Shown here in pieces: positions 19,917 to 63,293 of a stretch of DNA of 64,000 nt. Source of the stretch: Halichondria panicea (lineage: Eukaryota > Porifera > Demospongiae > Suberitida > Halichondriidae). A model generated the notes under the pieces. It saw only the letters and a program-made list of their open reading frames with translations, had not been told where the DNA came from and searched no databases. A program made the translations under genes and the position numbers. Position 1 is the first letter of the stretch, and each line of letters opens with the position of its first letter. The stretch is from the NCBI RefSeq assembly GCF_963675165.1, contig NC_087377.1, positions 17,154,518-17,218,517 on the forward strand, written 5' to 3'.

Positions 19917-20045
19917 GTGAGTGCAGACAGACTGTTGACTGTTAATGATTATGGTTTAGATCTTGTCAAGCTAGCTAGGCTAGTCTATACTTTACTAGCA
20001 TTTAATAATGATGTCTTTATCCCACACTCTACAGAGACTCAGAAG

Positions 20046-20430
20046 ATGTCTGACTATCTCACAATAGCAGATCTAAAGAAATTGTATCTCGTCACGTTTG
20101 ATGCTCGAATTAAGTGGCGAAACATCTTGCTTATTCTTGACGTACCCCAGGCTACAATCCACAGCATCGGGAAAGAATGGAGCAACAATCCTGATGACTG
20201 CTATCGTGAGGGTTTGATTAAATGGCTTAATGAAGGAGGGAAGAGCTGGGAAGATATGATGGAGGCATTGTCAAGTCCAATCGTAGGCCACGTTCACATA
20301 GCCAATACCATCGAGAAAGATCATCTACAGTCTACTGATGCAAGCAATCCTACTGATGTGAAGTCAGAGGGTAAGCACTAGTTCAGCACAGGAATGCACA
20401 TCTCATACATGATGTTATATGCTTATTCAC

Positions 20431-20480
<50 letters not shown>

Positions 20481-22816
20481 GTTCTACAGTTGACCAAAAC
20501 CGCCAGAAGATCAACGACGATTTAACTGTTTTCCTGGACAAGCCTCTCGGTAAAGGTGCATTTGGAGCAGTCTTCAAAGGCAGCTACAGGGGCGAGATAT
20601 GTGCAGTCAAAGTGCTGCTTCACGATGCTATGGAGATGCAGGCAAGTATTCCAGTCAGCAAAGACGAAGAAGCTAGCGATGCAATTGATCGTGAGAGTGA
20701 TTTTCTCAAGTCGTTCCAGCACCCAAATGTTGTTCAGTTTTTGTCGACTGCCAAGCACCCCAAATCAGGTGGTACAATCCTCGTTGTTGAGCTGATGGAT
20801 TGCAATCTGAGATCCTATTTCTCCGGCCTTGATGAAGAGTCCCTCACTAGCGAATATGAAATTAGCCTCTCCAAAGACATGGCTTGTGGTCTGGCCTACA
20901 TTCACAGCAAGCAGATTATCCATCGTGACCTCTGTGGTGATAACGTCTTGCTGAAGCTTACACGACCAGTGCCTGTCGCAAAGATATCCGACTTTGGCAT
21001 GTCACGGCTATACGATCCCTCCAAGCTTAGCCACACCCTCACAGCCATTGGTCACCGTATGGGGTATCTACCTCTCGAGGCTATTCGATTGGACAAGGAT
21101 AATTATGATAATAGCTTGGATGTGTTCTCTCTTGGGGCGATTATGATGCAGATTGTTCGCAAGCTGAAGACGATCAAATCTGTGGAAGATCGATCATTCC
21201 ATGTTGCCCAGATACCTCACACACACAGGTTGAGGAAGCTTATCGACAGTTGTTTGCAAGAAGACATGAGGAGGAGACCATCTGCCAGGGACATCTGTGA
21301 GTCAATGATAAGTATATTATGTGTTTTACGTTTCAGCTAACTGTAACCTATAACGAAAAAATCATATCCGTCTATTAATGTTGGTATCGATTTTAGATAC
21401 TTACCTGACAACAAGCTCGGACACAGTGGAGGCAACAAAGAGGGAGTCAAAGGACACTCAACCAGTCAAGAAGGTGCGTACATGTAGTGTGATAATGAGA
21501 TTCCCACAGCAACAATAGTATTGAACCTTAACATGCATGGATGCTGTCTCATGTGTTAAGCCGTAACTACACATTCGTTTGAGTGTGCCTATATATTATG
21601 TACTTCCTTTAGTGAAGATTGTCTCGTTCTGTTGTAGAATTTTCTCTAATGTTATTCACGTCTGTGTTGGATTTCCACCAACGTTCCCCTGTACAGGCTC
21701 ACAGGGAACAAATTAAGCACAAAGATGCTGAGCTGGTCAGGAGAGACGCCATCATTCAACAGCAGAGACAGGTGAGACAAAATACACCATTATATTATTG
21801 CAGAGCTATACTAGAAGCTTTGATCTCTTATAATCGTACTGTACATTCTATTAGACTGGTGGGTATGGCCTCTTAAGCTAATTAGAGAAAGTGATTTAGT
21901 GTGCATGCAATTATTGCTACAAGTAACACTCGCTTGTTAGTAGACACTATCCTAATTACACTCATTCATTATTCAGGGTCCCCCTCCCAGAGAGTTGAGA
22001 CCTCCACTCACTCTGAAATGGAGAAGAGGAAAAGACATGCCAATCAAGATGGGCTACTCGGTACAGAGTGTTGTTATCGGTGACACGGTGTATGTTGGTG
22101 GATGTAGTGCAGGCAATCATCGTGACATGTGTACAGTAATGAAGCTCGAGCAAGATCAATGGACCAAACTACCAGAGTACACTGCCAAGTACTTTGCTAT
22201 GACATCACTCGCTAATCGACTAGTGATGGTGGGAGGAGTTGATCCAAGAAACAACAATTGCACAAATCAACTTGCTGGGTTTGAGTTAAGGAAATGGACT
22301 CATCCGTACCCACCAATGAACATTGCTCGTCTTTGCTCAACAGCTGTTTCTTTCAACAACCACATCATTGTAGCCGGTGGGTGTGATGATAAAGGATATA
22401 CCTCCTCTGTGGAGGTGTTGGACGTGGCATCAAGAAGATGGTACATTGCTCAGTCACTACCTAACCCACGATCATCACTGAAATCGACTCTCATAGGAAA
22501 CACCCTCTACCTAATGGGAGGGGTGGATCACACTGACATGACAACCAAGACAGTGCACCACGTCGACCTCAATGAACTCATTGCAAAATCCCTTTCCAAC
22601 CTGGACACACCCACTCTCTGGCAGACCTTACAGAAAGTACCACTCGTGCGGTCAGCTCCTCTCAGTATTGGGAGGTCACTATTAGCCGTTGGTGGAGCGG
22701 ATGACAGAGGCAACCCAAGTTCATCGATCCACGTCTACCAGCCTGACACCAGGAGGTGGGTGAAAGTGGGAGACCTGCCTACCTCTGCGCACTTAAGGCC
22801 CGGGTCCAGATTTTAA
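20046..22816 (+). CDS. DK1: Death domain - kinase - kelch protein, C-terminus cut
   Basis: Exons: 20046-20370 (Death domain), 20490-21296 (kinase), 21397-21473, 21697-21771 (coiled coil, RRDAIIQQQRQ) and 21977-22816 (kelch). These give about 707 residues. The kinase has a glycine loop (GKGAFGAVFKG), VAIK-type lysine (CAVKVL), HRDLCGDN and DFGMSR, so it looks active. It resembles TKL kinases. The kelch region has repeated GG blade motifs. A 703-bp element at 22783-23485 interrupts the last blade after GDLPT and brings a stop at 22816. The lost end is still present at 23488-23608. I start at 20046 because all paralogues share MSDYLTI; in-frame ATGs further up lie in the 5' intron. Intron 1 holds a long C run followed by a CA repeat. 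The role is inferred: intracellular sensing with Death-domain and kinase signalling. Confidence 0.8.
20430..20478. repeat. C-run plus CA repeat in DK1 intron 1
   Basis: Eighteen C residues are followed by an uninterrupted CA repeat, ending ten bases before the kinase exon acceptor. The same composite occurs in DK2 at about 26756-26793 and DK4 at about 54142-54189. Confidence 0.9.
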
Positions 22817-23485
22817 CACCAAAATTTACACTATGTTCATACTGCTGTATTATTTGCAATATACAGTGTATGCTGCATCAAAATGATCCAAAATGAAGCT
22901 CAATGTTTTCTTTTTCCAAAAAACTAATTAGCTTAATTCAATTATGCTAATTAGTCCCATAAATGATGATGACGTCATGCCACTTTCAGAAAGAGAAGTG
23001 CAAATACGGCGTTGAAGATGCCAAGATCAAGCTTCAAAAACAAGGCTAGATGAACATCTCATAGCTAGGTACTAGTATCCTTGATGGGAAGAGTAGGAGT
23101 TATTGTATTCTTGAGATACACAAAATAGCCTACCTCTAGGGTGGCTGTCAGAGCTAAAGAAGCTAGCATAGCTAAGAAAGTTTTGGACATTTTTACTTCC
23201 CATCAAGGAAACATAATCATAACAACATAATCTATCTTTTGAGGGCCTAAACAGCTACTCTTACCTTGTTTAAGTCCGCCGTATTTGTTGCCAAAGATAA
23301 TCTATAATAGTTCTAGCAGCTAGCTAAGCAAATACATTGACCTTATGACGTCATGTGCAATGAATAACATTAATAAACATTATGAATCTCATTAACACTA
23401 CATGATCTACATGATCTACATAAAATGTAGGCAATGAATAAAATTAATCTTATCAGTGCCTGACCCAGGCCTTAACTGCCCAGAG
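22783..23485. mobile_element. 703-bp inverted-repeat element inside DK1 kelch exon
   Basis: The paralogues read GACCTGCCTACTGCACGATAC without a break. In DK1 this junction is split by 703 bases, flanked by AC on both sides (22781-22782 and 23486-23487). The ends are imperfect inverted repeats (CTCTGCGCACTTAAGGCC versus CTCTGGGCAGTTAAGGCC). The element has no transposase and contains further inverted segments. It introduces an in-frame stop within the first 35 bases. Confidence 0.85.
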
Positions 23486-23487
23486 AC

Positions 23488-23608
23488 TGCACGATACTTC
23501 TGCACATGCTCAGTACTTCCTAGTGGAGAGGTCATTGCAGCCGGAGGACAGACAAAACCGTTTACTTTTATTCAAACTGTTGATTTCTTCTCTATAAGTG
23601 CTAATTAG
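23488..23608 (+). pseudogene. Detached end of DK1 kelch domain
   Basis: It continues exactly where DK1 was cut, reading ARYFCTCSVLPSGEVI, then an AGGQT blade motif, and ends in a stop at 23608. It would be in frame if the element were absent. It has no start of its own and would be translated only if the insertion were spliced out; no obvious GT/AG pair does that. Confidence 0.8.
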
Positions 23609-23896
23609 TTATTTTATTATTGTTTCTCTTTGTAATAATTATTGTGCGTTAAGGATATGAATTTTTTTATCATGTTCTAATTAATTTTAATTGCAACAGA
23701 ATTTCATTACATAGTTAATACGATGGCATGAAGTGGTACATACAAAGTAATATTTAACAGTTAGTTTCTCTTTGCAATCTTGATATTTTATTATCTTGCA
23801 TGTCGGAAAAAAGCTAAGTCCATCAAAATGTATAATTATTATGATGACACGAAGTGGTGTGTACATAAGAATACTATAAAATAATATGTAACAGTC

Positions 23897-24020
23897 TCAT
23901 AACAAGTTCAGGTCCTTGGTTGGGGTCTTGTCCGAGGGTAGGGTGGACGCCTTCTCCCAGAATCCAAAGTCTATCTCCTCTTCCGAGTCAGACAGTGAGG
24001 GGTGGGGCTCGGGAACTGAG
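23897..24020 (-). CDS. Terminal exon of a minus-strand gene, unit 1
   Basis: Behind an acceptor (CCCCTCAG) the minus strand reads PEPHPSLSDSEEEIDFGFWE, then KASTLPSDKTPTKDLNLL and a stop. The same exon follows every kinase-kelch gene in this window. The acidic DSEEEIDFGFW stretch could be a short linear binding motif. I do not recognise the protein. A possible further exon lies near 24243-24300 (RRQEEALRMKVE, coiled-coil-like). It may be only a remnant. Confidence 0.45.
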
Positions 24021-25028: not shown

Positions 25029-25090
<62 letters not shown>

Positions 25091-25419: not shown

Positions 25420-25553
25420 TGTATTAAAACAGTTTTTAAGTGTTTGCTTTTATGTTACTTGGTGTGAACTCTGTGTGGGTACATACCTGGGTATCATGCA
25501 CAAGACCAAAGTTAGGCCGCACATCATAACCAACTACACATTATACACAAGTA

Positions 25554-26358: not shown

Positions 26359-26762
26359 ATGTCTGACTATCTCACAATAGAAGATCTAGGAGATCTATAC
26401 ATAGCTACGTTTGATGCTCGAATCAAGTGGAGAAACTTCTTGCTTGTTCTTAAAATACCCTCGGATACCATCGACAGCATTGGTACAAAATGGAGAGATG
26501 ATCCTGATGACTGCTATCGTGAGGGTTTGAAAGAATGGCTGAAAGGTGGTGAGAGAAGCTGGGAAGATGTTTTCAAAGCTTTGTCAAGTCCTATTGTGGG
26601 CCACAGTGACATAGCCAGGACCATCGAGAAAGATCGTCTACAGTCTACTGATGCAAGCAATCCTACTGATGTGAAGTCAGAGGGTAAGCACTAGTTCAGC
26701 ACAGGAATCATGCATGATGCTTATATAGTTTGTTAGCTACTATATATAATATTCACCCCCCC

Positions 26763-26795
<33 letters not shown>

Positions 26796-27320: not shown

Positions 27321-30300
27321 TGTGTGTCTGTCTGTGTCTGTCTGTTCGTCCGTCTGTTCCAGCTGAAACTGCTCAACGGTTGCAATGCGAGCAATGCGAC
27401 GAAAGCTAACAGCTTCTATAGTCTTCTAGCCACGTTCTCTTGGATTTTGATTCGTGGATTAGCAAACTAAAGCTTCTTTCTCGAGTTATGGCTAGTTTGA
27501 CTCACATTGAAGGCTGTTGCAGTCTCTTCAGAATCTTTCATAGCATCATCTGTCCGCACAAACTTTCTATTCAACATATGAGTTAGCCTTGCACTAAAGC
27601 GCTAGCTTTTTGTTAGCTACAATACTCAGAAAATATCTGTTAAAACAGCTAGCTAGCAGGTAGCCATTTGTGAAATTGGACACACTCTTTAATTATTCCT
27701 GTGGATGTAATGCGCTTGCGCGCTCATTCCCCATGTGTGAGAAAATAATATCCAAGATCCAGATCCAGATCCTCCTGGCAGAATCATCTTTGTCTTGAGG
27801 GTCTGGTAAGCCACAAAACACTACAATATAACAATATAGATAACAATATGCGTGTACACAGGTCTTTTCTTCTTAGATATTATATACACTGAACTACAGA
27901 TCCTGGAAGAATCAATTTTCTTCTTTCTTGAGGTCCTGGTAAGCCACATAATACAATAGATAACAACAATAGATGCATGTAATTAAGTATTTTCTTCTCA
28001 GTGACTTTATATAGATAAGCTAACATAAAATTCATTATAGAAACTAATATAACACTCTAATACTTTTGAGCGAAAGCAAAAACATGGCGAGAGGCATTAG
28101 CACAGCGCCAGCTTGAACACTAGTTTCTACCAGTATGGTTTTTGTGCTTTTTTTTTTTCTATAGTCCCTTAACTATTACTGTAGAGCTTCCCAAAATAAC
28201 GTAGACACACTGTGATAGACTATATGTAAAATACCTTAGATACAGATCGGATTGCATTTATAACTTTGAGCTGTTTCTAATTGTTAGGCTGAGTCAGTAA
28301 TTATGTGTCAGAAAGCCCGATCCCACCCCCTATACTTCTGTATATACCATTCTCAAACACACACACAATATTCCACAGTTGACCAAAACCGCCAGAAGAT
28401 CAACGATGATTTGACTGTTTTCCTAGACGAGCGTCTCGGTAAAGGTGCATTTGGAGCAGTCTTCAAAGGCAGCTACAAGGGCGAGATATGTGCAGTCAAA
28501 GTGCTGCTTCACGATGCTATGGAGATGCAGGCAAGTATTCCAGTCGGCAAAAACGAAGAAGCTAGCGTTGCAATTGATCGTGAAAGTGATTTTCTCAAGT
28601 CGTTCCAGCACCCAAACGTTGTTCAGTTTTTGTCGACTGCCAAGCACCCCAAATCAGGGAGTACAATCCTTGTTGTTGAGCTGATGGATTGCAATTTGAG
28701 ATCCTATTTCTCCAGCCTTGATGAAGAGTCCCTCACTAGCGAATGTGAAATTAACCTCTCCAAAGACATGGCTTGTGGTCTGGCCTACATTCACAGCAAG
28801 CAGATTATCCATCGTGACCTCTGTGGTGATAACATCTTGCTGAAGCTTACACGACCAGTGCCTGTCGCAAAGATATCCGACTTTGGCATGTCGCGGCTAT
28901 ACGATCCCTCCAAGCTTAGCCACACCCTCACAGCCATTGGTCACCGTATGGGGTATCTACCTCTCGAGGCTATTCGATTGGACAAGGATAATTACGATAA
29001 TAGCTTGGATGTGTTCTCTCTTGGGGCGATTATGATGCAGATTGTTTGCAAGCTGAAGACGATCAAATCTGTGGAAGATCGATCATTCCATGTTGCCCAG
29101 ATACCTCACACACACAGGTTGAGGAAGCTTATCGACAGTTGTTTGCAAGAAGACATGAGGAGGAGACCATCTGCCAGGGACATCTGTGAGTCAATGATAA
29201 GTACATTATGTGTTTTACGTTTCAGCTAACTGTAACCCTAACGAAAAAATCATATCCGTCTATTAATGTTGGTATCGATTTTAGATACTTACCTGACAAC
29301 AAGCTCGGACCCAGTGGAGGCAACAAAGAAGGAGTCAAAGGAAACTGAACAAGTCAAGAAGGTGCGTACATGTAGTGTGATAATGAGATTCCCACAGCAA
29401 CAATAGTATTGTACCTTAACATGCATGGATGCTGTCTCATGTGTTAAGTCGTAACTACACATCCGTTTGAGTGTGCCTATAATTATGTACTTCCTTTAGT
29501 GAAGATTGTCGCGTTCTGTTGTAGAATTTCCACTAATGTTATTCATGTCTGTGTTTGATTTCCACCAACGTTCCCCTGTACAGGCACACAGGGAACAGAT
29601 TAAGCACAAAGATGCTGAGCTGGTCAGGAGAGACGCCATCATTCAACAGCAGAGACAGGTGACACAAAATGCACCATTATATTATTGCAGAGCTATAGTA
29701 GAAGCTTTGATCTCTTATAATCGTACTGTACATTCTATTAGACTAGTGGGCGTGGCCTCTTAAGCTAATTAGAGAAAGTGATTGAGTGTGCATGCAATTA
29801 TTGCTACAAGTAACACTCACTTGTTAGTAGACACTATCCTAGTTACACTCATTCATTATTCAGGGTCCCCCTCTCAGAGAGTTGAGACCTTCACTCACTC
29901 TGAAATGGAGAAGCGGAACAGACATGCCAACCGGGATGGGCTACTCGGTACAGAGTGTTGTTATCGGTGACACAATGTATGTTGGTGGAGGTACTGCAGA
30001 CAATGATCGTGACAGGTGTACAGTGATGAAGCTCGAGCAAGATCAATGGACTAAACTACCAGAGTACACTGCCAGGTTCTTTGCTATGACATCACTCGCT
30101 AATCGACTAGTGCTGGTGGGAGGACAGGATCCAAGAAACAAAAAACGCACCAATCAACTTGCAGTGTTTGTGTCAGGGGAATGGACTCACCCGTACCCAC
30201 CAATTAACATTGCTCGTGATTCCTCAACAGCTGTCTCCTTCAACAACCACATCATTGTAGCTGGTGGGCGTGATGATAAAGGATATACCTCCTCTGTGGA

Positions 30301-30772
30301 GGTGTTGGACGTGGCATCAAGAAGATGGTACATTGCTCAGTCACTACCTAACCCACGATCATCACTGAAATCAACTCTCGTAGTAAACACCCTCTACCTA
30401 ATGGGAGGGTACGATCACAGAGTGTATCACGTCAACCTCAATGAACTCATTGCAAAGGCCCTTTCCAACCTGGACATACCCACTATCTGGCAGACCTTAC
30501 AGGAAGTACCACTCGTGTGTTCAGTTCCTCTCAGTATTGGGAGGTCACTATTAGCCATTAGTGGAGCGGATGACAAATTCAAGCCAAGTTCATCGATCCA
30601 CCTCTACCAGCCGGACACCAGGAGGTGGGTGAAAATGGGAGACCTGCCTACTGCACGATACTACTGCACATGCTCAGTACTTCCTAGTGGAGAGGTCATT
30701 GTAGCCGGAGGAGAGACAAATCTGTCAACTTTTGTTCAAACTGTTGATTTCTTCTCTATAAGTGCTGATTAG
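26359..30772 (+). CDS. DK2: Death domain - kinase - coiled coil - kelch protein
   Basis: Exons 26359-26683, 28379-29185, 29285-29361, 29584-29658 and 29864-30772 join in frame to 730 residues. The Death domain is about residues 1-95 (KWRNFLLVLKIP, REGLKEWL, SWEDVFKAL). The TKL-like kinase is about 125-375, with GKGAFGAVFKG, CAVKVL, HRDLCGDN and DFGMSR. A short coiled coil lies near 405-428. Six kelch blades fill 430-730, with blade GG motifs such as LVGGQD, AGGRD, MGGYD and AGGET. One blade has SGAD in place of GG. Blade 4 is six or seven residues shorter than in the paralogues (GGYDHRVYHV). Intron 1 has grown to 1.7 kb because it contains the ATGCCTC repeat copy. Location is probably cytoplasmic: no signal peptide or membrane segment is visible. 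Confidence 0.9.
27236..28128 (+). repeat. Dispersed repeat with ATGCCTC ends, copy 2
   Basis: It lies in intron 1 of DK2 and is nearly identical to 33508-34328. It starts ATGCCTCGAGGCGTAGCC, includes a TG/TCTG tract (27282-27350) and ends near GAGGCATTAGCACAGCGCC. Similarity continues a few bases to CACTAGTTT. No coding frame was found. Confidence 0.7.
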
Positions 30773-31376: not shown

Positions 31377-33507
31377 CTGTAGCCAGGATAAACAACACAT
31401 GGACACATTCAAACTGGTAGTGTGATGAAGGGTCTGGTACACGTACTGTACAATGTCATGTACAAATATTGTGAGCTAGTGTTCTCAATTGACACACGTT
31501 TCCCTGTACACACCTAAACTGCATACATTGAAGCATACCTTGTATACAAGTGCATGTACATACAGACTAGTAAGCATGCTAGGTTCCCATTCTGTGTACT
31601 GTACATTCAATAGTACACAGTGGACTCATTGCACTGCATAACTACACATTATACACACGTACCTTGTTCTTGATGAAGGTTCTTCAGTAGCCCCTGTCCA
31701 TGGACCCATGTCTTCAGATTGTCCCTCACTGCACCGCTTATAGGCTGCTCACCCGATACCTCTACGATAATACCAGGCCAACTTTCGAGGAGGTGCGGAT
31801 TGAGATGGAGGCTAGGCCGTACAAAATTATAATGGGCGTGGTTTATATATAAATGGGCGTGGCTATGTTCACAACAAATTTTATTTTATGTTCACTGAAT
31901 AAGACACAAATATCATGTATAAAAACTATGTATACATAATAATACTGACAATGTAGCTATAGTAAGTGAAGGAGAGATTACTAAAAAACACACGTTAAAA
32001 CTAGAACAGTATAAACAGTCCACAATTATAATATACTGTACACTACTGTTGAGAGGATTGGTCCACCGTTTCCATAGACATTGAATCTTGCCCGGGGCTA
32101 CCAGCACTTGAGTTGCTTGTGAGCACATTCTGAGCCAGAATCAGAGTGTTGAGCAGACTAGCAGCAGCCGCGGCAGAGAGACCACCACCACCATCACCAC
32201 CCCCGCCATTGTTGTTGGCTTGTGACAGCATGGAGGATTTCGGTACAGGAGTGGACGGAGAAGTGGTCGTGCTTGCAATGGAGGATAGAGTTTGTACGAG
32301 TGAGCTTAAGAGTGGTGTGTTTGGATTAGAGGCTCCAGTCGGCAGCGATGATTGTAAGAGGGGAGAGAATTGTGACGAAGCTGACAAGTGCATAGGTTGT
32401 GCTTGCGAAGGTGTCAGGCTGGAGACAATGCCACCAAGTTGTTGTAGGGACGAGATAGAACTCGGTGTTTGGTTGTGTGCCAGTAAGGTCAACAGAGGAC
32501 TGTTGGTGAGGTTCTGTGCCAGGGATAGTAGTAGTTGCTGTGCTGCTACATTGTTAGTTTGTTGTGTGGATTGTTGTGGAGGGGAGACAGAAGTGGTCGG
32601 TGGTGAGTGGGTCACTACTGTGTTGAGGAGACTCTGGGCCAGAGGAGAGTTTAGAAGTTGCTGGTTAGGTTGCTTTTGACCAGAGGAGGCAGCTGCATCG
32701 ATTCCAAACTGGATAATCTGTGCTCGAAGAAATGCGTTCTCTTTCTCTAGGACTTGGATTTGGTTTTGAAGCATTGCTAAAGCTTTCTCTGCGATTTTGG
32801 CACTGGCTGTGAGTTGTTCGTTTTGAAACACGAGCTCTTTCAAGTAGTCGACTGTCTTGTCCAGTACCGTTCCCTTGCTGTACACATACTGCAGTCAGGG
32901 AAACATGACGTAAGGGTGAGACATGTACGTGGAGATAACAAAAAAACATACTTAGTTGCTGTTAAAAAATAGCAATTATATTTTATGTGTAACTAACTAC
33001 ATGTGTTATATACGATGGCCTCTGCTGGATTCTATGCTACTACTAACATAACACTGGGCTCTACACTAATGCATGCTTAAAAAAGCTTAGCAATAATATT
33101 AAGAAATTTAGGCTTAAAAAAAACCAAGTTAGTAGTTATTTCGATGGCTTTCAATAGTACTTTAGTATACACATGAACAGACACACACACTCACCCCGAC
33201 AATGGAACCAGTATAGTTGCGTCTTTCTTCTGACAAGCAGGCACTATCTGAGCCAGTATCTTGATGAGCTCGTTGATCCTGTCCCGACGCCAACAACGCT
33301 CAACTGGGCGTGGGAAGAACAACAACAACTGGTAATTATCGTGTTTAGGGCATGTACAATGAAGCTGAGCCAATTGGCAAAATGAATGAACCTTGACCTC
33401 ACACACACACACGTACACCACTGTACAGTATAAAAACCAAGGCATAATTAATAATTAAGAATGCGTTTACAGCATTAGATAGCCTCTACAAAACAAGTTA
33501 TTAGTTA

Positions 33508-36065: not shown

Positions 36066-38861
36066 ATGTCTGACTATCTCACAATAGCAGATCTAGGAGA
36101 TCTATACATAGCTACGTTTGATGCTCGAATCAAGTGGCGAAACTTCTTGCTGGTTCTTAAAATACCCTCCGAGACAATCGACAGCATTGGTACGAAATGG
36201 CGAGATGATCCTGATGACTGCTATAGGGAGGGTTTGAAAGAATGGCTGAACTGTGGTAAGAGAAGCTGGGAAGATGTTGTCAAAGCTTTGTCAAGTCCTA
36301 TTGTGGGCCACGTTCACATAGCCAAGACCATTGAGAAAGATCATCCTAGTGCAAGCAATCCTAAAAGAATCAAATTACAGGGTAAGTACCAATGGCACAT
36401 TAATACATGATTATCTTTCAACCTTCTGCACACAATATTTTTTAGATCACCAGTTGATCAACGATGATTTGACTGTTTTCCTAGACGAACCTCTCGGTAA
36501 AGGTGCATTTGGAGCAGTCTTCAAAGGCAGCTACAGGGGCGAGATATGTGCAGTCAAAGTGCTGCTTCACGATGCTATGGAGATGCAGGCAAGTATTCCA
36601 GTCGGCAAAGACGAAGAAGCTAGCGATGCAATTGATCGTGAAAGTGATTTTCTTAAGTCATTCCAGCACCCAAACGTTGTTCAGTTTTTGTCGACTGCCA
36701 AGCACCCCAAATCAGGTAGTACAATCCTTGTTGTTGAGCTGATGGATTGCAGTCTGAGATCCTATTTTTCTAGCCTTGATGAAGAGTCCCTCACTAGCGA
36801 ATGTGAACTTAGCCTTTCCAAAGACATGGCTTGTGGTCTGGCCTACATTCACAGCAAGCAGATTATCCACCGTGACCTCTGTGGTGATAACGTCTTGCTG
36901 AAGCTAACACGACCAGTGCCTGTTGCAAAGATTTCCGACTTTGGCATGTCACGGCTATACGATCCCTCCAAGCTTAGCCACACCCTCACAGCCATTGGTC
37001 ACCGTATGGGGTATCTACCTCTCGAGGCTATTCGATTGGACAAGGATAATTACGATGATAGCCTGGATGTGTTTTCCCTTGGGGTGATTATGGTACAGAT
37101 TGTTTGCAAGCTGAAGACGATCAAATCTGTGGAAGATCGATCATTCCATGTTGCCCAGATACCTCACACACACAGGTTGAGGAAGCTTATCGACAGTTGC
37201 TTGCAAGAAGACATGAGGAGGAGACCATCTGCCAGGGACATCTGTGAGTCAATGATAAGTATATTATGTGTTTTACGTTTTTGCTAACCGTAACCGTAAC
37301 GAAAAGATCATATCCGTCTATTAATGTTGGTATCGATTTTCTTTTACTTTAGATGTGGACCTTACAAGGGGCTTAGACACAGTGGAGGCAACAAAGAGGG
37401 AATCAAAGGACACTCAACCAGTCAAGAAGGTGCGTACATGTAGTGTGATAATGAGATTCCCACAGCAACAATAGTATTGTACCTTAACATGCATGGATGC
37501 TGTCTCATGTGTTAAGCCGTACTACACATCCGTTTGAGTGTGCCTATAATTATGTACTTCCTTTAGCGGAAATTGTTGATTGTTCTTGTTCTATTGTAGA
37601 ATTTCCACTAATGATATTCACGTCTGTGTTTTAGATTTCCACCAACGTTCCCCTGTACAGGCACACAGGGAACAGAGTGAGCACAAAGATGCTGAGCTGG
37701 TCAGGAGAGACGCCATCATTCAACAGCAGAGACAGGTGACACAAAGTGCACCATTATATTATTGCAGAGCTATAGTAGAAGCTTTGATCTCTTATAATCG
37801 TACTGTACATTCTATTAGACTGGTGGGCGTGGCCTCTTAAGCTAATTAGAGAAAGTGATTTAGTGTGCATGCAATTATTGCTACAAGTAACACTCGCTTG
37901 TTAGTAGACACTATCCTAATTACACTCATTCATTATTCAGGGTCCCCCTCCCAGAGAGTTGAGACCTCCACTCACTCTGAAATGGAGAAGAGGAAAAGAA
38001 ATGCCAATCAAGATGGGTAACTCGGTACAGAGTGTTGTTATCGGTGACACGGTGTATGTTGGTGGAGGGTTTGCAGACAATGATCGTGACAGGTGTACAG
38101 CGATGAAGCTCGAGCAAGATCAATGGACCAAACTACCAGAGTACACCGCCAAGTGGTTTGCTATGACATCACTCGCTAATCGACTAGTGCTGGTGGGAGG
38201 ACATGATCCAAGAAACAACAAACGCACCAATCAGCTTGCAGTGTTTGAATCAGGGAAATGGACTCACCCGTACCCACCAATGAACATTGCTCGTTGTTCA
38301 ACAGCTGTCTCCTTCAACAACCACATCATTGTAGCTGGTGGGTGTGATGATAAAGTACGTACCTCCTCTGTGGAGGTGTTGGACGTGGCATCAAGAAGAT
38401 GGTACATTGCTCAGTCACTACCTAACCCACGATCAGAACTGAAATCAACTCTCATAGGAAACACCCTCTACCTAATGGGAGGGTTCGATCACACTGGGAC
38501 AACCAAGACAGTGTACCACGTCGACCTCAATGAACTCATTGCAAAGGCCCATTCGAACCTGGACACACCCACTCTCTGGCAGACCTTACAGGAAGTACCA
38601 CTCGTGCGGTCAGCTCCTCTCAGTATTGGGAGGTCACTATTAGCCGTTGGTGGAACGGACGACAGACACAACCCAAGTTCATCGATCCACCTCTACCAGC
38701 CTGACACCAGGAGGTGGGTGAAAGTGGGAGACCTGCCTACTGCACGATACTTCTGCACATGCTCAGTACTTCCTAGTGAAGAGGTCATTGTAGCCGGAGG
38801 ACAGACAAAACGGTTTACTTATATTCAAACTGTTGATTTATTCTCTATAAGTGCTAATTAG
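36066..38861 (+). CDS. DK3: Death domain - kinase - coiled coil - kelch protein
   Basis: Exons 36066-36381, 36446-37243, 37353-37429, 37661-37735 and 37941-38861 join in frame to 728 residues. The Death domain, kinase motifs (GKGAFGAVFKG, HRDLCGDN, DFGMSR) and six kelch blades are intact. It differs from DK1, DK2 and DK4 in the linker after the Death domain (ASNPKRIKLQG) and lacks the C-run/CA repeat in intron 1, which is only 64 bases. Its linker exon reads VDLTRGLDTVE. Blade pocket residues differ from all others (for example GGHD, PRSEL, GGFD, GGTD). Copies of the same minus-strand exons follow it. Confidence 0.9.
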
Positions 38862-40098: not shown

Positions 40099-41205
40099 TC
40101 ATGTATAAAAACTATGTATACATAATAATACTGACAATGTAGCTATAGTAAGTGAAGGGGAGATTCTGGCCAGAGGAGAGTTTAGAAGTTGCTGGTTAGG
40201 TTGCTTCTGACCAGAGGAGGCAGCTCCATCGATTCCGAACTGGATAATCTGTGCTCGAAGAAATGCGTTCTCTTTCTCTAGGACTAGGATTTGGTTCAAA
40301 GCTTTGGTTGATTTCTCTGCGATTTTGGCACTGGCTGTGAGTTGTTCGTTTTGAAACACGAGCTCTTTCAAGTAGTCCACTGTCTTGTCCAGTACCGTTC
40401 CCTTGCTGTACACATACTGAAGCCAGGGAAACATGACGTGAGGGTGAGACATGTACGTGGAGATAACAAAAAAACATGCTTAGTTGCTGTTAAAAAATAG
40501 CAATTTTACTTTATGAGCAACTAACTACATGTGTTATATACGATGAACTCTGCTGGATTCTATGCTACTAGTAACTAACGTAACACTGGGCTCTACACTA
40601 ATGCATGCTTAGCAATAATAGTAATTTTACTCTTTAAAAAAACCAAGTTAGTAGATATTTCGATGGTTTTTCCAATAGTACTTTAGTACACACACTCACC
40701 CCGACAATGGAACCAGCAGTTGCGTCTTTCTTCTGACAAGCAGGCACTATCTGAGCAAGTACCTTAATGAGCTCGTTGATCCTGTCCCGACGCCGACGCT
40801 CAACTGGGCGTGGGAAGAACAACAACAACTGGTAATCATCGTGTTTAGGACATGTACAATGAAGCTGAGCCAATTGGTAAAATGAATGAACCTTGACCTC
40901 ACACACACACACGTACACCTACTGTACAGTATAAAAACCAAGGCATAATTAATAATTAAGATGGACAATAATGCGTTTACAGCATTAGATAGCCTCTACA
41001 CAACAAATAAGTTATTAGTTTTGAAAGTGGCAGATTTGATGTTAAAGCTTCGTAACTGTACTTTGTGGGAAATGCTTCTATTTGATTATGACCACGTACG
41101 TACATGTACATCTGTTGTACACTTCTAACTTTCAGTATTGAATTTGCATCACCTTCATTGTGTGTAGCTTTCCTCTGAGCTTCCCTGTTGGTGGCCATAT
41201 CCCCA
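40099..41205 (-). pseudogene. USF-like bHLH-zipper gene, truncated copy 2
   Basis: Exons are seen at about 41150-41205 (MATNREAQRKATHNE), 40693-40804 (bHLH, VERRRRDRINELIKVLAQIV) and 40099-40421 (zipper). The bHLH is intact and in phase with the zipper exon, unlike copy 1. The zipper reads EKSTKALNQILVLEKEN, one residue shorter than copy 1, which shifts the heptad register. After LLNSPLA the long activation tail is lost and the frame runs into spacer with a stop at 40099. The N-terminal activation exons are missing. If made, it would be a DNA-binding protein without an activation region. Confidence 0.55.
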
Positions 41206-51731: not shown

Positions 51732-53209
51732 TTAATGACAGTCACAAATATAAGCTTTTGCTAATGAAAACATACACACAATTCCTTTTTGAGAATTGCA
51801 ATCAATTTGGGCTAGTTCTTGCCTAAGTACATGTTTTTGTTCACTGGATAATAGATCGTCAATGTCTTCAACAACAACTGTTTGGTCTCCGTTGAGTGGT
51901 ACAGGCCCATCAACATCTATCCCATAAGCTTCAGATTCCTGATAGGTATAATAATAAGTATAATAATGTATAAAAAGTGATTGTGGGAAAAACATAAATT
52001 TACACCTACCTCATGCAGTCCACTTAGTGCCTCGTGTTCAGGATTTACTGTTCTTGTTTGCAGCAGACCAGACACCCAAAGTTGCATAGGAGATTTTCCA
52101 TGCTCAGTTCTTAGCCCATGATTGGACCAACCAAGCATAAAGTTGTTCAGTTGGTCTTGAATCACTCCAAGAAATGAGAAATGTAAAGCATAAATGTCGC
52201 GCTCATCCTGTATGTCAAGAAGCCCACAGTCCTCTAAAAAGTAGAACGAATAGTAAAAGAAACTGATACATCCTGAAAAAAGATCTCTCCAAAGCCTTTC
52301 TATTCTCTGATTGTGCACGCTACGACCAGCTATGGCATGCCCAACTCCTCTCTCTTCAACAATATACCGTGCAACCTCAACATTTTCGCCGCCCTTGTCC
52401 ATTCGGATACGCGAGGGCAGCCCAAACTCTGTAACTCCTTGTTCAAATGCTTGGAACATAGTTTCAGCTCTATTGTTTGAAGATACTTTCAAGAACATTA
52501 TGAGGCGGCTAAAACCATCAATACCTCCGTGGATAACGAGTCGCCATCTGATCAACTTATGGTATCCATCAATATGCCACAGGTCATTTGGGGAATCAAC
52601 ATGGTATCTTCGTCGGCGAAGAACACCTCTTGCACGAGACTCCACCCCAAATGGATCAACTCTTCTCAGAGACTCTCTTATTCTTTTACGAGACATTCTC
52701 AAACCTTCACTCTTTAATCTACCATCGACCGATTTCTGACCGCACATGGGGAACATGGACACTATGCGTAAAACCTTTTCATCCAATTCAGCATTGGTAA
52801 TGGATGCGTACATATCACATTGGCGAGGAATATCATATTCCAATAATCGTCTCTCAACAGTTCTTCGACTGCATCCAAAAATAACAGATATATCGTTCAT
52901 CTTAAAGCCACAATCTCTCAAGAATAATAGTCGATCTCTAGCAATCACAATTTTGGGTCTTCCTCTTCTCTGTTCTCTATTTTCTTGCTTATTGCTAAGT
53001 ATCACAAGAATCTCCCATAATGTGCACCTAAGAGTGACTGCTTCATCGTTACTCACCAGATCAAGATAGTTAATGCTCATTTCTAGCATTTCAAGAAGAC
53101 ATTCCTTGGTGTTTTCTCTTGTGCTATCTTCTTCTTCAATGCAATCAAACTTGACTGCTTCCAGAGTAGCTTCACAAAATGTCAGGACACAGTCATATAA
53201 GGTACCCAT
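51732..53209 (-). CDS. DDE integrase-like transposase
   Basis: Two exons, 52011-53209 and 51732-51938, give 468 residues. After an acidic N-terminal region, a helix-turn-helix follows a basic GRPK stretch (LRDCGFKMNDISVIFGCSRR). The catalytic core has D in DLWHIDGYHKL, D in IRMDKGGENV and E in NQRIERLWRD. The words IRWRLVIHGGIDGFSRL are typical of the integrase-core proteins found in cnidarians, fish and sponges. The C-terminal exon is acidic (VVVEDIDDLLSSEQ). The frame is open throughout. The start at 53209 (MGTLYDC) lies close to the right inverted repeat. It would cut and paste the element that carries it. Confidence 0.8.
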
Positions 53210-53284
53210 TGAGCTGAGGTATAATAAGGGACTCAGATCTAGTCATGTGATAATCACTAAGTCATGTGACTTTATATTTCTATC

Positions 53285-53740: not shown

Positions 53741-56584
53741 ATGTCTGACTATCTGACAATAGCAGATCTAAAGAAATTGTACCTCGTCACGTTTGATGCT
53801 CGAATTAAGTGGCGAAACATCTTGCTTATTCTTGACGTACCCTCGGATACCATCGATAGTATTGGTACGAAATGGCGAGACAATCCTGATGAATGCTATC
53901 GTGAGGGTTTGAAAGAATGGCTGAAAGGTGAAGAGAGACGCTGGGAAGATGTTGTCAAAGCTTTGTCCAGTCCCATTGTGGGCCACGTTCACATAGCTAA
54001 TACCATCGAGAAAGATCATCTACAGTCTACTGATGCAAGCAATCCTACTGATGTGAAGTCAGAGGGTAAGCACTAGTTCAACACAGGAATCATACAGTCA
54101 TAATGCTTAGTTCGTTAGCTGCTATATATAATATAATATTCACCCCCCCCCCCCACACACACACATACACACACACACACACACACACAATGTTCTACAG
54201 TTGACCAAGATCACCAGAAGATCGACGATGATTTGACTGTTTCCTTAGACGAACCTCTAGGTAAAGGTGCATTTGGAGCAGTCTTCAAAGGCAGCTACAG
54301 GGGCGAGATATGTGCAGTCAAAGTGCTGCTTCACGATGCTATGGAGATGCAGGCAAGTATTCCAGTCGGCAAAAACGAAGAAGCTAGCAATGCAATTGAT
54401 CGTGAGAGTGATTTTCTCAAGTCGTTCCAGCACCCAAACGTTGTTCAGTTTTTGACGACTGCCAAGCACCCCAAATCAGGGAGTACGATCCTCGTTGTTG
54501 AGCTGATGGATTGCAATTTAAGATCCTATTTCTCTGGCCTTGATGAAGAGTCCCTCACTAGCGAATGTGAAATTAGCCTCTCCAAAGACATGGCTTGTGG
54601 TCTGGCCTACATTCACAGCAAGCAGATTATCCACCGTGACCTCTGTGGCGATAACGTCTTGCTGAAACTTACACGACCAGTGCCTGTCGCAAAGATATCC
54701 GACTTTGGCATGTCACGGCTATACGATCCCTCCAAGCTTAGCCACACCCTCACAGCCATTGGTCACCGTATGGGGTATCTACCTCTCGATGCTATTCGAT
54801 TGGACAAGGATAATTATGATAATAGCTTGGATGTGTTCTCTCTTGGGGCGATTATGATGCAGATTGTTTGCAAGCTGAAGACGATCAAATCTGTGGAAGA
54901 TCGATCATTCCATGTTGCCCAGATCCCTCACACACACAGGTTGAGGAAGCTTATCAACAGTTGTTTGCAAGAAGACATGAGGAGGAGACCATCTGCCAGG
55001 GACATCTGTGAGTTAATTATAATTATGTGTTTTACGTTTCCACTAACTCCTAGCTCTAACAGAAAAATCATTTTATGTTGGTATTGATTTTCTTTTACTT
55101 TAGATGCTTACCTGACAACAAGCTCGGACCGAGTGGAGGAAACAAAGAGGGAGTCAAAGAACACTCAACCAGTCAAGAAGGTGCGTACATGTAGTGTGAT
55201 AATGAGATTCCCACAGCAACAATAGTATTGTACCTTAACATGCATGGATGCTGTCTCATGTGTTAAGCCGTAACTACACATCCGTTTGAGTGTGCCTATA
55301 ATTATGTACTTCCTTTAGTGAAGAATGTCTCGTTCTGTTGTAAAATTTTTTCACCGATGTTCCCCTGTACAGGCACACAGGGAACATAATAAGCACAAAG
55401 ATGCTGAGCTGGTCAGGAGAGACGCCATCATTCAACAGCAGAGACTGGTGAGAAGAAATGCACCATTATAATTATTATTGCAGAGCTATAGTAGAAGCTT
55501 TGATCTCTTATAATCGTACTGTACATTCTATTAGACTGGTGGGCATGGCCTCTTAAGCTAATTAGAGAAAGTGATTTAGTGTGCATGCAATTATTGCTAC
55601 AAGTAACACTCGCTTGTTAGTAGACACTATCCTAATTACATGCACTCATTCATTATTCAGGGTCTCCCTCCCAGAGAGTTGAGACCTCCACTCACTCTGA
55701 AATGGAGAAGAGGAAAAGACATGCCAATCATGATGACCTCTGTAGAGAGTGTTGTTATCGGTGACACGGTGTATGTTGGTGGAGGATTTGCAGACAAGGA
55801 TTTTGACAGGTGTACAGTGATGAAACTCGAGCAAGATGAATGGACCAAACTACCAGAGTACACTGCAAGGTTCTTTGCTATGACATCACTCGCTAATCGA
55901 CTAGTGCTGGTGGGAGGACAGGATCCAAGAACTAAAAAACTCACCAATCAACTTGCAGTGTTTGAGTCAGAGGAATGGCCTCACCCGTACCCACCAATGA
56001 ACATTGCTCGCCATTCCTCAACAGCTGTCTCCTTCAACAACTACATCATTGTAGCTGGTGGGCGTGATGTTAAAGGACGTACCTCCTCTGTCGAGTTGTT
56101 GGACGTGGCATCAAGAAGATGGTACATTGCTCAGTCACTACCTAACCCACGATCAGGACTGAAATCTACTCTCATAGGAAACACCCTCTACTTAATGGGA
56201 GGGTGGGATCACACTGGGAGTGCAACCAAGACAGTGCACCACGTCGACCTCAATGAACTCATTGCAAAGGCCCTTTCCAACCTGGTCACACTCACTCTCT
56301 GGCAGACCTTACAGGAAGTACTACTCGTGTGGTCAGCTCCTCTCAGTATTGGGAGGTCACTATTAGCCGTTGGTGGATCGAACGACAGTTACAAGCCAAG
56401 TTCATCGATCCACCTCTACCAGCCTGACACCAGGAGGTGGGTGAAAGTGGGAGACCTGCCTACTGCACGATACTTCTGCACATGCTCAGTACTTCCTAGT
56501 GGAGAGGTCATTGTAGCCGGAGGACAGACAGATTCATTTCTTTATATTCAAACTGTTCATTTCTTCTCTATAAGCACTAATTAG
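53741..56584 (+). CDS. DK4: Death domain - kinase - coiled coil - kelch protein
   Basis: Exons 53741-54065, 54201-55007, 55104-55180, 55373-55447 and 55661-56584 join in frame to 735 residues. The Death domain is a mosaic: its first half is almost identical to DK1 (LKKLYLVTFD, NILLILDVP) and its second half matches DK2/DK3. Kinase motifs are intact; the activation segment reads LPLDAI instead of LPLEAI. The coiled-coil exon ends IIQQQRL. The first kelch blade lacks one residue (MTSVES) and pocket residues differ (GGWD, LVWS, GGSND). Its promoter E-boxes are displaced 5.8 kb upstream by the IS3EU-like transposon, so expression may be altered. Confidence 0.9.
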
Positions 56585-57948: not shown

Positions 57949-57959
57949 CCTTACGTAAA

Positions 57960-59868: not shown

Positions 59869-59904
59869 CACGTGGTTTGCTGATTCAGCTGTTATTGCAT
59901 GTGA
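59869..59904 (+). promoter_or_regulatory. DK5 upstream E-box with degenerate partner
   Basis: CACGTG occurs at 59869-59874 in the DK2-like context CCACGTGGTTT. The partner at 59899-59904 is CATGTG, as in DK1. Spacing is 30 bases. Confidence 0.5.
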
Positions 59905-59978
59905 TTGGACATTGGAATAGGAAAAAGGGTGTATCTTGTACATCTTGTAGCTAGCTAGCTGAGTCAACTTAACTACCA

Positions 59979-62900
59979 ATGTTTTCTTTGCGAGATGATG
60001 CTGACTTGAGGGAGTTTGTGCTGGAGAATGTGGAGCACTTTGGAGAGGAGAGAGTTCTAGGAACTGGCTCCTATGGCTCTGTTCAAGAGGTCAGTCACTG
60101 CATGCTCTGTTTCTGGGCACTGTCTCTAGTGTATCTGCTAGCTATTCAAGTGTGACTGCCTCCATGCACAGGTGATGATCAATGGTGAGGTGTATGCAGC
60201 CAAGAAGATCCACGAGGTTCTCCTGGAGACAGACGAGCGTGGTGGAGTGGCCAACCTAGCTGGGAACTACCGCAGAGAGTGTCGACTCATGGCTCGCATC
60301 CGTCACCCCAACATCACCCAGTTCATTGGGCTGTGTTTCGTGACTGGCTCTCGACTGCCCCTCCTGGTCATGGAGAGGCTGGACTCAAGTCTGGACGATC
60401 TCCTGGAGTCCACCCCCAACATCCCCCTCTCTGTCACCCAGTACATTCTGGTCTGTGTGGCTCGAGGGCTGCTCCACCTGCATCGTGAGTCCGTGGTCCA
60501 TCGTGATCTCACTGCCAGGAACGTCCTGCTGACGGCATCTCTGAGAGCCAAGATCACAGACTTTGGTAACTCTCGTATCGTGAATCTGGAGCCTGGTCGA
60601 CTGGCCAGGACTCTGACGAGGTTTCCTGGGACACTGGTGTACATGCCGCCTGAGGCCCTCTCTGACAGAGGTCACAGTGTGTACGGACCCAGTCTGGACG
60701 TCTTCTCTTTCGGAGTGCTACAATTGTTTTCACTCACACAAGTATGTGTGTAGTTAATGATATTCATAGGTTAGATTCCTGGTGACCATTCGAATTACCT
60801 TATAAGTATTGTGGTTGTATGTGTTGGGGAGATTCCCCTTTAATATTGTTTGACCTTCAGCAAATGCATTTGTATGTATGATTGTGAAAATACTTGCACT
60901 CGTTTTCTCCATACATACAGACATACATAAAAACAATCATGACAGTCAGTATTCACATGTTCTTCCACTCGTGTCATTGGACTAGGTGTTTCCAGGAGAT
61001 CTCCTTGCCCCCACGTACAGTGACCCCAACAACCCAGACCACCTCCTGGCTCGCTCAGAGTTTGAGCGTCGAGGCACCTACACGGCTCTCCTTGAGAGGA
61101 GTCTGGCGGGTGGACGTGAGCACCCTCTGTTTGGTTTGGTGAGGGAGTGTCTGGCTAACACCCCAGAGAGAAGACCAACCACCGCTGAGCTCCTCTCGTC
61201 TCTGGAGGAGGTGGGGAGGGAGATGGACGGAGGACTGCTCCAGCTGGACATTGCACGAGTGAAGACTGCCAGGACCATCAGGGCAAAGGAGAAGAGGATA
61301 GAGGCTCTACAGGTGAGTCCAGTCCAGTGAGCTAGTGGGTGCAAGGGTCTGACACTGCATGCTGTACTCTGTTCTCAGAGAGAGGTGATCCAGAAGGACA
61401 GGATACTGGAGAGGAAAGATGAGCAACTTGAACAGAGTGTTGCACTACTGGCACAAAAAGACGATCAACTAGATGAAAAAGATGCACTTCTGGCACAAAA
61501 AGATGAGGAAGTAGCGGACAAAGATACTCAGCTTGCTAGACAGCAACAGGTCAGCAGAACCAGTTTATTTTGTTTATTATAAGCTATTTTGTTCAACGAG
61601 CTAGCATGTTGATAACCTTTTTTTCACTTTATACAGATATTGAATAGTGTCTGTGCCACCAAAGATGGTGTGATTGCTGACAAGGACAGACAACTCAGTG
61701 AACAAGAGTCAAGGATCACTGATCTCATTTCCCAGAGAGAGGCTGCTCTAGTTGAGAGGGCCACTCTCTTACAGGTATTATAGTAGTCACCAAATGCACA
61801 CACTCTTATACGCTAGTATTATACTACAATAATGATATTTGTTTGCGTACTCGTAGCTAAGTGTGTCGATGAGATTCCAACAATAGTATTATACCTCAAC
61901 AATTGATGCTATTGTATAAATCATGCTAAGCCGTAACTACACATCCGTTTGAGTGTGCCTATAATTATGTACTTCCTTTAGCGGAAATTGTCTCGTTCTG
62001 TTGTAGAATTTCCACTAATGATATTCACGTCTGTGTTTTAATTCAAAGATTTCCACCAACGTTCCCCTGTACAGGCTCACAGTGAACAGATTATGCACAA
62101 AGATGCTGAGCTGGTCAGGAGAGACGCCATCATTCAACAGCAGAGACAGGTGAGACAAAATGCACCATTATATTATTGCAGAGCTATAGTAGAAGCTTTG
62201 ATCTCTTATAATCGTACTGTACATTCTATTAGACTGGTGGGCGTGGCCTCTTAAGCTAATTAAAGAAAGTGATTTAGTGTGCATGCAATTATTGCTACAA
62301 GTAACACTTGCTTGTTAGTAGACACTATCCTAATTACACTCATTCATTATTCAGGGTCCCCCTCCCAGAGAGTTGAGACCTTCACTCACTCTGAAATGGA
62401 GAAGAGGAAATGACATGCCAATCAAGATGGGTGCCACGGTACAGAGTGTTGTTATCGGTGACACGGTGTATGTTGGTGGAGGGTTTGCAGGCAATGATCG
62501 TGACGCGTGTACAGTGATGAAGCTCGAGCAAGATCAATGGACCAAACTACCAAAGTACACTGCCAAGTACTTCGCTATGACATCACTCGCTAATCGACTA
62601 GTGCTGGTGGGAGGAATTGATGTAAGAAACAACAAACGCACCAATCAGCTTGCAGTGTTTGAGTCAGGGGAATGGACTCACCCGTACCCACCAATGAACA
62701 TTGCTCGTTATTCCTCAACAGCTGTCTCCTTCAACAACCACATCATTGTAGCTGGTGGGCGTGATGATAAAGAAAGCACCTCCTCTGTGGAGGTGTTGGA
62801 CGTGGCATCAAGAAGATGGTACATTGCTCAGTCACTACCTAACCCACGATCAGTACTGAAATCGACTCTCATAGGAAACACCCTCTACCTAATGGGAGGT

Positions 62901-63293
62901 TACGATTACACTGGGATGCCAACCAAGACAGTGTACCACGTCGACCTCGATGAACTAATCGCAAAAGCCCTTTCCCACCAGGACACACCCACTCTCTGGC
63001 AGACCTTACAGGAAGTACCACTCGTGTGGTCAGCTCCTCTCAGTATTGGGAGGTCACTATTAGCCGTTGGTGGACGGGGCGACAGAGGCAACCCAAGTTC
63101 ATCGATCCACCTCTACCAGCCTGACACCAGGAGGTGGGTGAAAGTGGGAGACCTGCCTACTGCACGATATCGCAGCACATGCTCAGTACTTCCTAGTGGA
63201 GAGGTCATTGTAGCCGGAGGACAGACAAAACTAGGAGGATATACAGTTGGTAATTTTGTTCAAACAGTTGATTTCTTTTGTATAAGCGATTAA
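59979..63293 (+). CDS. DK5: kinase - long coiled coil - kelch protein without Death domain
   Basis: Exons 59979-60089, 60172-60741, 60986-61312, 61379-61549, 61637-61774, 62075-62149 and 62355-63293 join in frame to 776 residues. The kinase spans about residues 15-310, with GTGSYGSVQE, YAAKKI, HRDLTARN and DFGNSR. The ARN catalytic loop is tyrosine-kinase-like, unlike HRDLCGDN of DK1-DK4. GC content and codon use are also higher in the kinase exons. Then come about 110 residues of heptad-like coil rich in AQKD and EKD words, the shared RRDAIIQQQRQ coil, and six kelch blades close to those of DK1-DK4. The last blade has an insertion (GGQTKLGGYTVGN). It looks like a different kinase joined to the same coil-kelch cassette. 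Confidence 0.85.

Follow-up and report, generated by a model that had tools for sequence, protein, structure and literature searches.

A candidate family of germline-diversified Kelch-propeller recognition receptors in the sponge Halichondria panicea

Background

Among described systems, the NWD/HNWD proteins of Podospora anserina (HET-D, HET-E and HET-R; WD40-propeller NLRs) are, by analogy, the nearest in way of working to the genes treated here. The excerpted text of PMC4986451 and PMC12222747 states that their WD40 repeats are homogenised, that diversifying selection nonetheless acts on four positions of each repeat at the interaction surface, and that their N-terminal domains differ. The BTB-Kelch (KLHL) adaptors use another propeller, with its DA and BC loops as the binding face: these loops form the substrate surface of KEAP1 (contacts Arg415, Arg483, Ser508, Ser363, Asn382 and Arg380; PMC4668279, in excerpt), and the peptide bound by KLHL20 touches all six DA loops and five of the six BC loops (PMC6720452, in excerpt). 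The subject of this report is a 64,000-nucleotide stretch of the genome of the sponge Halichondria panicea (the window: 17.15-17.22 Mb of contig C1, NC_087377.1, in a genome of 131 Mb in 39 contigs), in which five exons, DK1 to DK5, specify Kelch propellers of a family of at least 127 such exons. The family probably constitutes a germline-diversified, modular set of recognition receptors in which a Kelch sensor is combined with at least three front ends and a ring of sites on the propeller is under diversifying selection.

Like the NWD/HNWD proteins, the sponge family has a near-fixed propeller frame with a few diversified codons per repeat on what is predicted to be the interaction surface; concerted evolution between members and the joining of different N-terminal domains to related sensors are further likenesses (homogenisation being seen here in medians only, and splicing being predicted). 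On the other hand, the propeller is Kelch instead of WD40, its frame is kept between genes and not between repeats, the front ends are Death-like and kinase domains in an animal host, with no NACHT in the exons that were scanned, and at least 127 Kelch exons compare with a fungal family of ten members. Membership of the NWD/HNWD family was rejected because the sensor is Kelch and not WD40 by Pfam and the scanned exons hold no NACHT.

With the KLHL adaptors KEAP1, KLHL12 and KLHL20 the sponge proteins share the six-bladed Kelch fold and, by prediction, the DA/BC binding face, but they bear a kinase or Death-like domain instead of a Cul3 adaptor. No BTB or BACK domain, and no NACHT or NB-ARC, appeared in Pfam scans of the front-end A, B and C exons (exons further upstream could be missed), and membership of the KLHL adaptors and of the NLR/STAND proteins was rejected on these respective grounds. 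The genome as a whole has at least 102 NACHT matches, which together with its expanded Death-like and kinase genes and its small size suits a sponge. The order of a Death-like exon followed by a kinase is that of IRAK/Pelle, and IRAK4 is among the sequence matches of the DK kinase (E 3e-15), but entries for EGFR (E 6e-23) and LIMK1 (E 1e-17) outscore it in this one query, made without a tree, and the Death match is sub-threshold. IRAKs are not known to carry a Kelch tail. A large expanded receptor repertoire occurs in another early-branching animal, the sponge Dysidea avara, with its 126 NACHT+LRR genes (PMC12909245, in excerpt); the sensor of the present family is instead a Kelch propeller, with no NACHT or LRR in the scanned exons. 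Kelch-motif genes, not necessarily of this family, are among those changed after microbial signals in two sponges (PMC6208332, in excerpt). No description of a hypervariable Kelch receptor family was found in the titles and abstract openings listed by searches of the open PMC literature (at most 25 papers per search; subscription journals lie mostly outside that scope, and earlier publication is possible).

Results

Hypervariable sites of the Kelch exon

The original prediction, made from the window, held that the Kelch propellers of five DK genes differ from copy to copy at two equivalent sites per blade, one directly after the blade GG and one in a loop near a conserved arginine, on a nearly fixed frame. 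The listed residue changes are present in the aligned translations and mostly exact, with small corrections: blade 5 of DK2 has SG-A where GG-A was given, DK4 has lost one residue at the first site (MM-T), and DK1 has no blade 6. The count of five holds for Kelch exons, but the Kelch exon of DK5 follows a different kinase (60142-61330) and the family itself is far larger. All ten named sites do vary; two per blade is nevertheless an undercount, in that sites 47, 52, 72, 141-143, 188-190, 246 and several at 293-303 vary too (numbering by codons of the DK5 exon; Table 1).

These sites were followed in 65 Kelch exons, 62 of them unique: the five window copies, 20 Kelch exons taken from the genome, and those of 40 six-kb gene regions. 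Three identical exons were left out, as were the masked exon ends of DK1, L018, L024, L029, L038, L043 and L059. Mean pairwise nucleotide identity of the unique exons is 0.919. Over the 309 well-occupied alignment columns of the 65 copies, median entropy is 0.23 bits; site 89 holds 15 different amino acids, sites 45 and 120 hold 13 each, and site 137 holds 12. Amino-acid identity among 40 labelled copies is ~0.91 in the frame and ~0.23 at 21 hypervariable sites, and 60 distinct combinations of 18 hypervariable sites occur in the 62 unique copies (the lists of 8, 18 and 21 sites used in this report were picked from the same data that were later analysed with them). 

Selection was analysed site by site with a FUBAR-type procedure of our own (not HyPhy), consisting of an MG94-style codon model, a fixed FastTree tree and a grid of synonymous (alpha) and nonsynonymous (beta) rates. 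The posterior probability that the nonsynonymous rate exceeds the synonymous is at least 0.99 at all ten sites named beforehand and at their blade-1 and blade-6 equivalents, 45 and 291, that is, at 12 of 12 ring sites (62 unique exons). The dN/dS check that had been proposed for the named sites thus returned a large nonsynonymous excess. When each third of the exon is given its own tree, 10 of the 12 still reach 0.99, and sites 184 and 226 stand at 0.984 and 0.976. The whole-exon ratio is greater than 10 at nine ring sites and only 2.4-3.0 at sites 184, 226 and 242, because the synonymous estimate is also high at these three. At sites 28, 45, 89, 120, 137, 168, 246 and 274, beta is 9-15 and alpha 0.04-0.2. 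Neutral simulation on the same tree yielded no site of 600 at P>0.9, and a mixture simulation recovered all 20 fast sites with no false call among 280, both being run without recombination.

Simpler counts give the same contrast. In 31 disjoint closest pairs, the proportion of nonsynonymous differences (pN) is 0.475 at 18 hypervariable codons vs. 0.040 elsewhere, and that of synonymous differences (pS) is 0.089 vs. 0.043. By maximum likelihood, the 18 sites have beta 10.8 and alpha 0.64-0.68, and the frame has beta 0.39-0.41 and alpha 0.46-0.52; as a class, the 18 sites change amino acid more than 10 times faster than they change synonymously. Hypervariable-site divergence between pairs stays at ~0.80 for all values of frame pS above 0.01; the six pairs with a lower pS show 0.35. 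Omega is 0.46 for the kinase exon (22 sequences), 0.34 for the Death-like exon (21) and 1.08 for the Kelch exon of 18 of those genes. (What this means for the frame is that "nearly fixed" is apt as a description, at ~91% identity, but less so as a statement of constraint.) Because frame pN/pS is 0.80-0.93 pairwise and its beta/alpha by maximum likelihood ~0.8, the sameness of the frame owes much to recent or homogenised ancestry and not to strong purifying selection alone.

Position of the sites on the propeller

The sensor exon specifies a six-bladed Kelch propeller. It matches Pfam Kelch_1 with E 8e-28, and AlphaFold2, run on an alignment of the five window proteins, predicts six sets of strands (predicted local distance difference test score, pLDDT, 82; predicted template modelling score, pTM, 0.84). 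Searched with this model, Foldseek returned a Kelch domain as best match (E 2.5e-17); almost every one of the 50 rows listed is a Kelch domain or a Kelch-like design, with the Kelch domains of NS1-BP, KLHL12, KLHL20 and KEAP1 among them.

When residues 13-312 are classed by the strands listed for the predicted model, and not by inspected coordinates, residues with P>0.99 make up 34 of 126 in DA/BC loops, against 2 of 44 in opposite loops and 3 of 130 in strands (DA/BC loops vs. all others, Fisher 6.6e-10). Where P>0.99 is combined with beta>5, 25 of 26 sites are in DA/BC loops. The mapping that had been proposed thus places the named sites in the DA/BC loops of one propeller face, with 242 (the remaining one of the 26) at a predicted strand end. 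By this predicted model, nearly all of the strongest hypervariable sites lie on the surface with which KEAP1 and KLHL20 bind their ligands; KEAP1 probably makes its contacts at the equivalents of the post-GG position and of the position following the conserved arginine. The nonsynonymous excess at the named sites and their location on one face give good support to the suggestion, made from the window, of a diversified recognition family.

Family size and genomic distribution

A search of the genome with the DK5 Kelch exon gives at least 127 matches, 80-91% identical (self excluded), of which 125 have no internal stop; the number is a lower bound, 127 having been scored out of 461 first-look candidates. 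There are 102 in a 1.9-Mb cluster on C1 (15.48-17.39 Mb), three near 11.0 Mb of the same contig, 19 on C6 and three on the small contig C28. Five extra exons from C6, C28 and the 11.0-Mb site are 85% identical in the frame and 17% identical at 18 hypervariable sites, and the same sites therefore vary beyond the main cluster. A bacterial and archaeal genome collection scanned with DK5 Kelch, using patterns suited to close relatives, gave 18 pattern matches and no relative.

The C1 cluster is made up of two opposed halves, all minus strand at 15.48-16.14 Mb and all plus strand at 16.71-17.39 Mb, with none listed between them. Identical Kelch exons can be far apart in it: L013, L014 and L015 are at 15.825, 16.893 and 17.364 Mb, and L026 and L027 are further instances. 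Recent duplication or conversion over long range may account for these, or else duplication in the assembly. The Kelch exons of L065 and L067 differ by 7 synonymous and 9 amino-acid changes and have all 18 listed hypervariable residues in common, and this pair may be keeping one specificity. A small separate group of Kelch matches is found on C8 at 692-707 kb. A COX1 search of the genome gave a single fragment, on C1, with two internal TGA.

Signalling front ends

The sequence upstream of Kelch in the 40 six-kb loci is of three types. Front end A (22 loci, as defined by the kinase) is a Death-like exon and a protein kinase; B (nine loci, and also DK5) is another kinase and a coiled-coil-like stretch; C (seven loci) is a 384-residue domain. 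The two loci without an assigned front end, L022 and L042, were left out of the front-end test described below. In genome loci the type-B kinase is ~31-37% identical to the DK kinase over the part aligned by tblastn. Genome copies of B number 48 at 84% identity or more, the next best being at 51%; there are 13 full-length copies of C at 86% or more, and 117 of 144 matching rows for A are at 74% or more, some of these being two pieces of one exon.

Front end C matched nothing in Pfam at thresholds up to E 1, and no PDB sequence up to E 5. Its C-terminal ~240 residues (L048:2643-3794) recur genome-wide, mostly at 23-47% identity and again without a Pfam match, and are possibly an undescribed domain. 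Other expanded kinase families are present in clusters on C11 (4.4-6.5 Mb) and C3 (0.88-1.7 Mb), whose matches are ~46-51% identical to the type-B kinase. One stretch of C15 (683-768 kb) holds seven kinase matches 41-45% identical to the DK kinase.

The Kelch cassette

Relatedness of Kelch exons is independent of front end. For 40 labelled unique copies, those of the window among them, copies that share a front end are no more alike in the frame (identity 0.914) than copies with different ones (0.916). On their Kelch tree the label switches 13 times, compared with 14.4 switches when labels are shuffled (P 0.19).

Upstream of the Kelch exon, divergence was profiled at 37 loci, three identical loci being left out. 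In the last 240 columns ahead of the exon (the intron and part of the coiled-coil-like exon), median pairwise distance is 0.000-0.021; further upstream it climbs to 0.05-0.10 and then to 0.37. At fourfold sites the mean distance is 0.10 for the kinase and 0.22 for the Death-like exon; of the six Kelch segments, the last has 0.025 and the other five have 0.047-0.059. It follows from these two sets of distances that most copies have front ends older, or less homogenised, than their Kelch exon and its immediate upstream sequence. The close pairs L049/L052 and L021/L066 differ almost solely in one stretch, which looks like the product of an exchange event in each case.

Genes of the window

Splice donors and most acceptors of the four type-A genes of the window were located by pattern (Table 1), the exceptions being the acceptor of the DK3 kinase exon and the linker exon, which was matched in DK1 only. 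The DK1 exons are predicted, by eye, to be joinable in open phase to the short coiled-coil-like exon ahead of Kelch. The DK1 Kelch exon departs from the family sequence after "LPT", and the piece that matches its missing end lies ~690 bp downstream; this interruption (21974-23599) is probably an insertion, leaving a broken gene.

Table 1. Coordinates of family exons and of ring sites in the window (positions in the 64,000-nucleotide stretch)
Feature	Position	Strand	Remarks
DK1 Death-like exon	20046..20370	+	ATG to splice donor; Pfam Death sub-threshold in family
DK1 kinase exon	20490..21296	+	HRD and DFG motifs
DK1 linker exon	21397..21473	+	splice sites, open phase; pattern match in DK1 only
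DK1 coiled-coil-like exon	21697..21771	+	by eye
DK1 Kelch exon	21977..22816	+	broken after blade 5; piece matching missing end at 23486-23599
DK2 Death-like exon	26359..26683	+	
DK2 kinase exon	28379..29185	+	
DK2 coiled-coil-like exon	29584..29658	+	
DK2 Kelch exon	29864..30772	+	
DK3 Death-like exon	36066..36381	+	
DK3 kinase exon	36475..37243	+	approximate start, no acceptor matched by pattern; donor at 37244
DK3 coiled-coil-like exon	37661..37735	+	
DK3 Kelch exon	37941..38861	+	
DK4 Death-like exon	53741..54065	+	
DK4 kinase exon	54201..55007	+	
DK4 coiled-coil-like exon	55373..55447	+	
DK4 Kelch exon	55661..56584	+	
DK5 type-B kinase, first part	60142..60753	+	open frame, not a delimited exon
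DK5 type-B kinase region, second open frame	60986..61330	+	no Pfam match alone; same arrangement in L012 and L025
DK5 Kelch exon	62355..63293	+	reference numbering: codon 1 = 62352-62354
Hypervariable DA-loop site, blade 1, codon 28	62433..62435	+	DK5 Kelch exon
DA-loop equivalents of codon 28 (starts; codon in brackets)	62568 (73), 62709 (120), 62853 (168), 63027 (226), 63171 (274)	+	
Hypervariable residue after GG, blade 2, codon 89	62616..62618	+	DK5 Kelch exon
Post-GG equivalents of codon 89 (starts; codon in brackets)	62484 (45), 62760 (137), 62901 (184), 63075 (242), 63222 (291)	+	

Other coding stretches lie inside the receptor cluster on the minus strand of the window. One resembles a transcription factor (32043-32894; bHLH-zipper by eye) and has a second, partial copy at 40099-40479; two others, at 45462-46028 and 51917-53242, are integrase- or transposase-like reading frames by eye, and mobile elements seem to be interspersed in the cluster.

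Discussion

Several results weigh against the interpretation of the family as receptors diversified by selection on one propeller face. The sample is 65 of at least 127 exons and is not random, the first 20 being the best DK5 matches and the rest coming from the minus-strand half of the cluster. Recombination breaches the assumption of a single tree, and on segment trees the ratio at sites 184, 226 and 242 is only 1.7-4.3. Sites with P>0.99 also include the two in opposite loops and the three in strands. Synonymous change at the 18 sites is itself raised over the frame, 1.3-fold by maximum likelihood and two-fold in pairwise counts, and the frame is under little purifying selection (the pairwise dN/dS of 0.80-0.93 given above); with kappa 4.27 the ratio is ~1.0 in opposite loops and 0.67 in strands, both values being at the edge of the grid. 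The case for a cassette depends on medians. Means over the 240 upstream columns are 0.02-0.10, and the mean distance of the last 180 bp ahead of Kelch (0.066) is above the frame pS (0.045) on account of copies that are strongly divergent or poorly aligned. The Death-like assignment is a weak one, with Pfam Death at E 0.037-0.06, below the cut-off, in two of four copies, a FADD profile match of E 0.005 for the exon, and a poor AlphaFold2 model (pLDDT 45).

Variation at a few codons might be made by targeted or local hypermutation, directed at codons or bases in the manner of diversity-generating retroelements (DGRs), and not by selection. Eight core sites do have the look of it: their codons are mostly NN with one prevailing third base, almost one codon per amino acid; maximum likelihood finds no synonymous change at them, and amino-acid change at position 3 runs at half the rate of positions 1-2 (2 delta lnL 14.0). 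Linkage between neighbouring hypervariable sites is also weak (co-sharing 1.14 at 1-5 codons, seven pairs, and 1.42 at 6-14, two pairs). The eight sites were, however, chosen after the pattern had been seen, and an alpha of 0.1 or less is reached by 5.2% of 500 random draws of eight frame sites. In the full set of 18, position 3 changes as fast as positions 1 and 2 do (ratio 1.00, 2 delta lnL 0.01), so that mutagenesis confined to positions 1 and 2, the signal for which is limited to the post-hoc eight, is disfavoured. As to features of DGR targets, the variable codons need no AAY-type templates, sites of the forms NNG and NNA being found, and position 3 is free over the 18 sites, though not over the post-hoc eight. 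(NNY codons show a T/C difference in 1 of 8 hypervariable vs. 65 of 134 frame cases, a small sample.) Moreover, the sites track protein geometry. Local hypermutation is quite unlikely, because synonymous rates are at most slightly raised.

A history of old balanced variants, in which gene conversion homogenised the frame under concerted evolution and frequency-dependent selection, with little recent substitution, would suit two observations: the small median distances immediately before the Kelch exon, and the near-confinement to one stretch of the differences within the pairs L021/L066 and L049/L052. Old variants would be expected to carry linked synonymous changes, but synonymous variation at hypervariable codons is no more than slightly raised by maximum likelihood (two-fold in pairwise counts), and there is little linkage between adjacent sites. 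As the whole explanation this history is unlikely; old variants may contribute alongside recurrent substitution. Drift under relaxed constraint, or in pseudogenes, would let loops vary for want of anything to hold them, and both the high frame pN/pS and the broken DK1 point that way. Drift gives the neutral rate at most, however, and the hypervariable class exceeds that rate more than 10-fold; the neutral simulation produced no false call in 600, and all but two of the 127 Kelch exons are free of stops. Drift is accordingly a highly improbable account.

Diversifying selection on a receptor family would work as follows. A gene would carry one of at least three front ends, then a short coiled-coil-like linker and, at the C-terminus, a six-bladed Kelch propeller, presumably spliced into one protein. 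The propeller would serve as sensor for a variable ligand, using two ring positions per blade (in the BC loop the one that follows GG, and in the DA loop the one that follows the conserved arginine) together with positions further along the BC loops. These positions would face the ligand pocket, and diversifying selection for new or rare specificities would make copies differ there. The Kelch exon and the sequence just upstream would be a cassette, exchanged among genes whatever their front end (exchange being the putative cause of the pattern), and would in this way recombine sensors with signalling outputs. Binding of ligand would then bring kinases or Death-like domains together, leading to clustering, phosphorylation or Death-type signalling and so to a response.

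The signalling modules, taken with the selection pattern, suggest that the role may be one in immunity or self-recognition. A wider proposal is put forward tentatively, as possible but short of probable: that this is a modular system of more than 100 genes which evolved apart from NLRs, LRRs and immunoglobulins, with a Kelch cassette recombined among at least three front ends to give a combinatorial germline repertoire for microbial or self/non-self recognition. If this is true, the Kelch receptor system might supply the molecular basis still missing for allorecognition in this lineage. The principle of the fungal incompatibility receptors, a homogenised propeller with few hypervariable positions on one face, would then have arisen separately in an animal, on another fold and tied to kinases and a Death-like domain. 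The exact residues are named here for testing, and the family is a candidate for recognition specificity in an early-branching animal.

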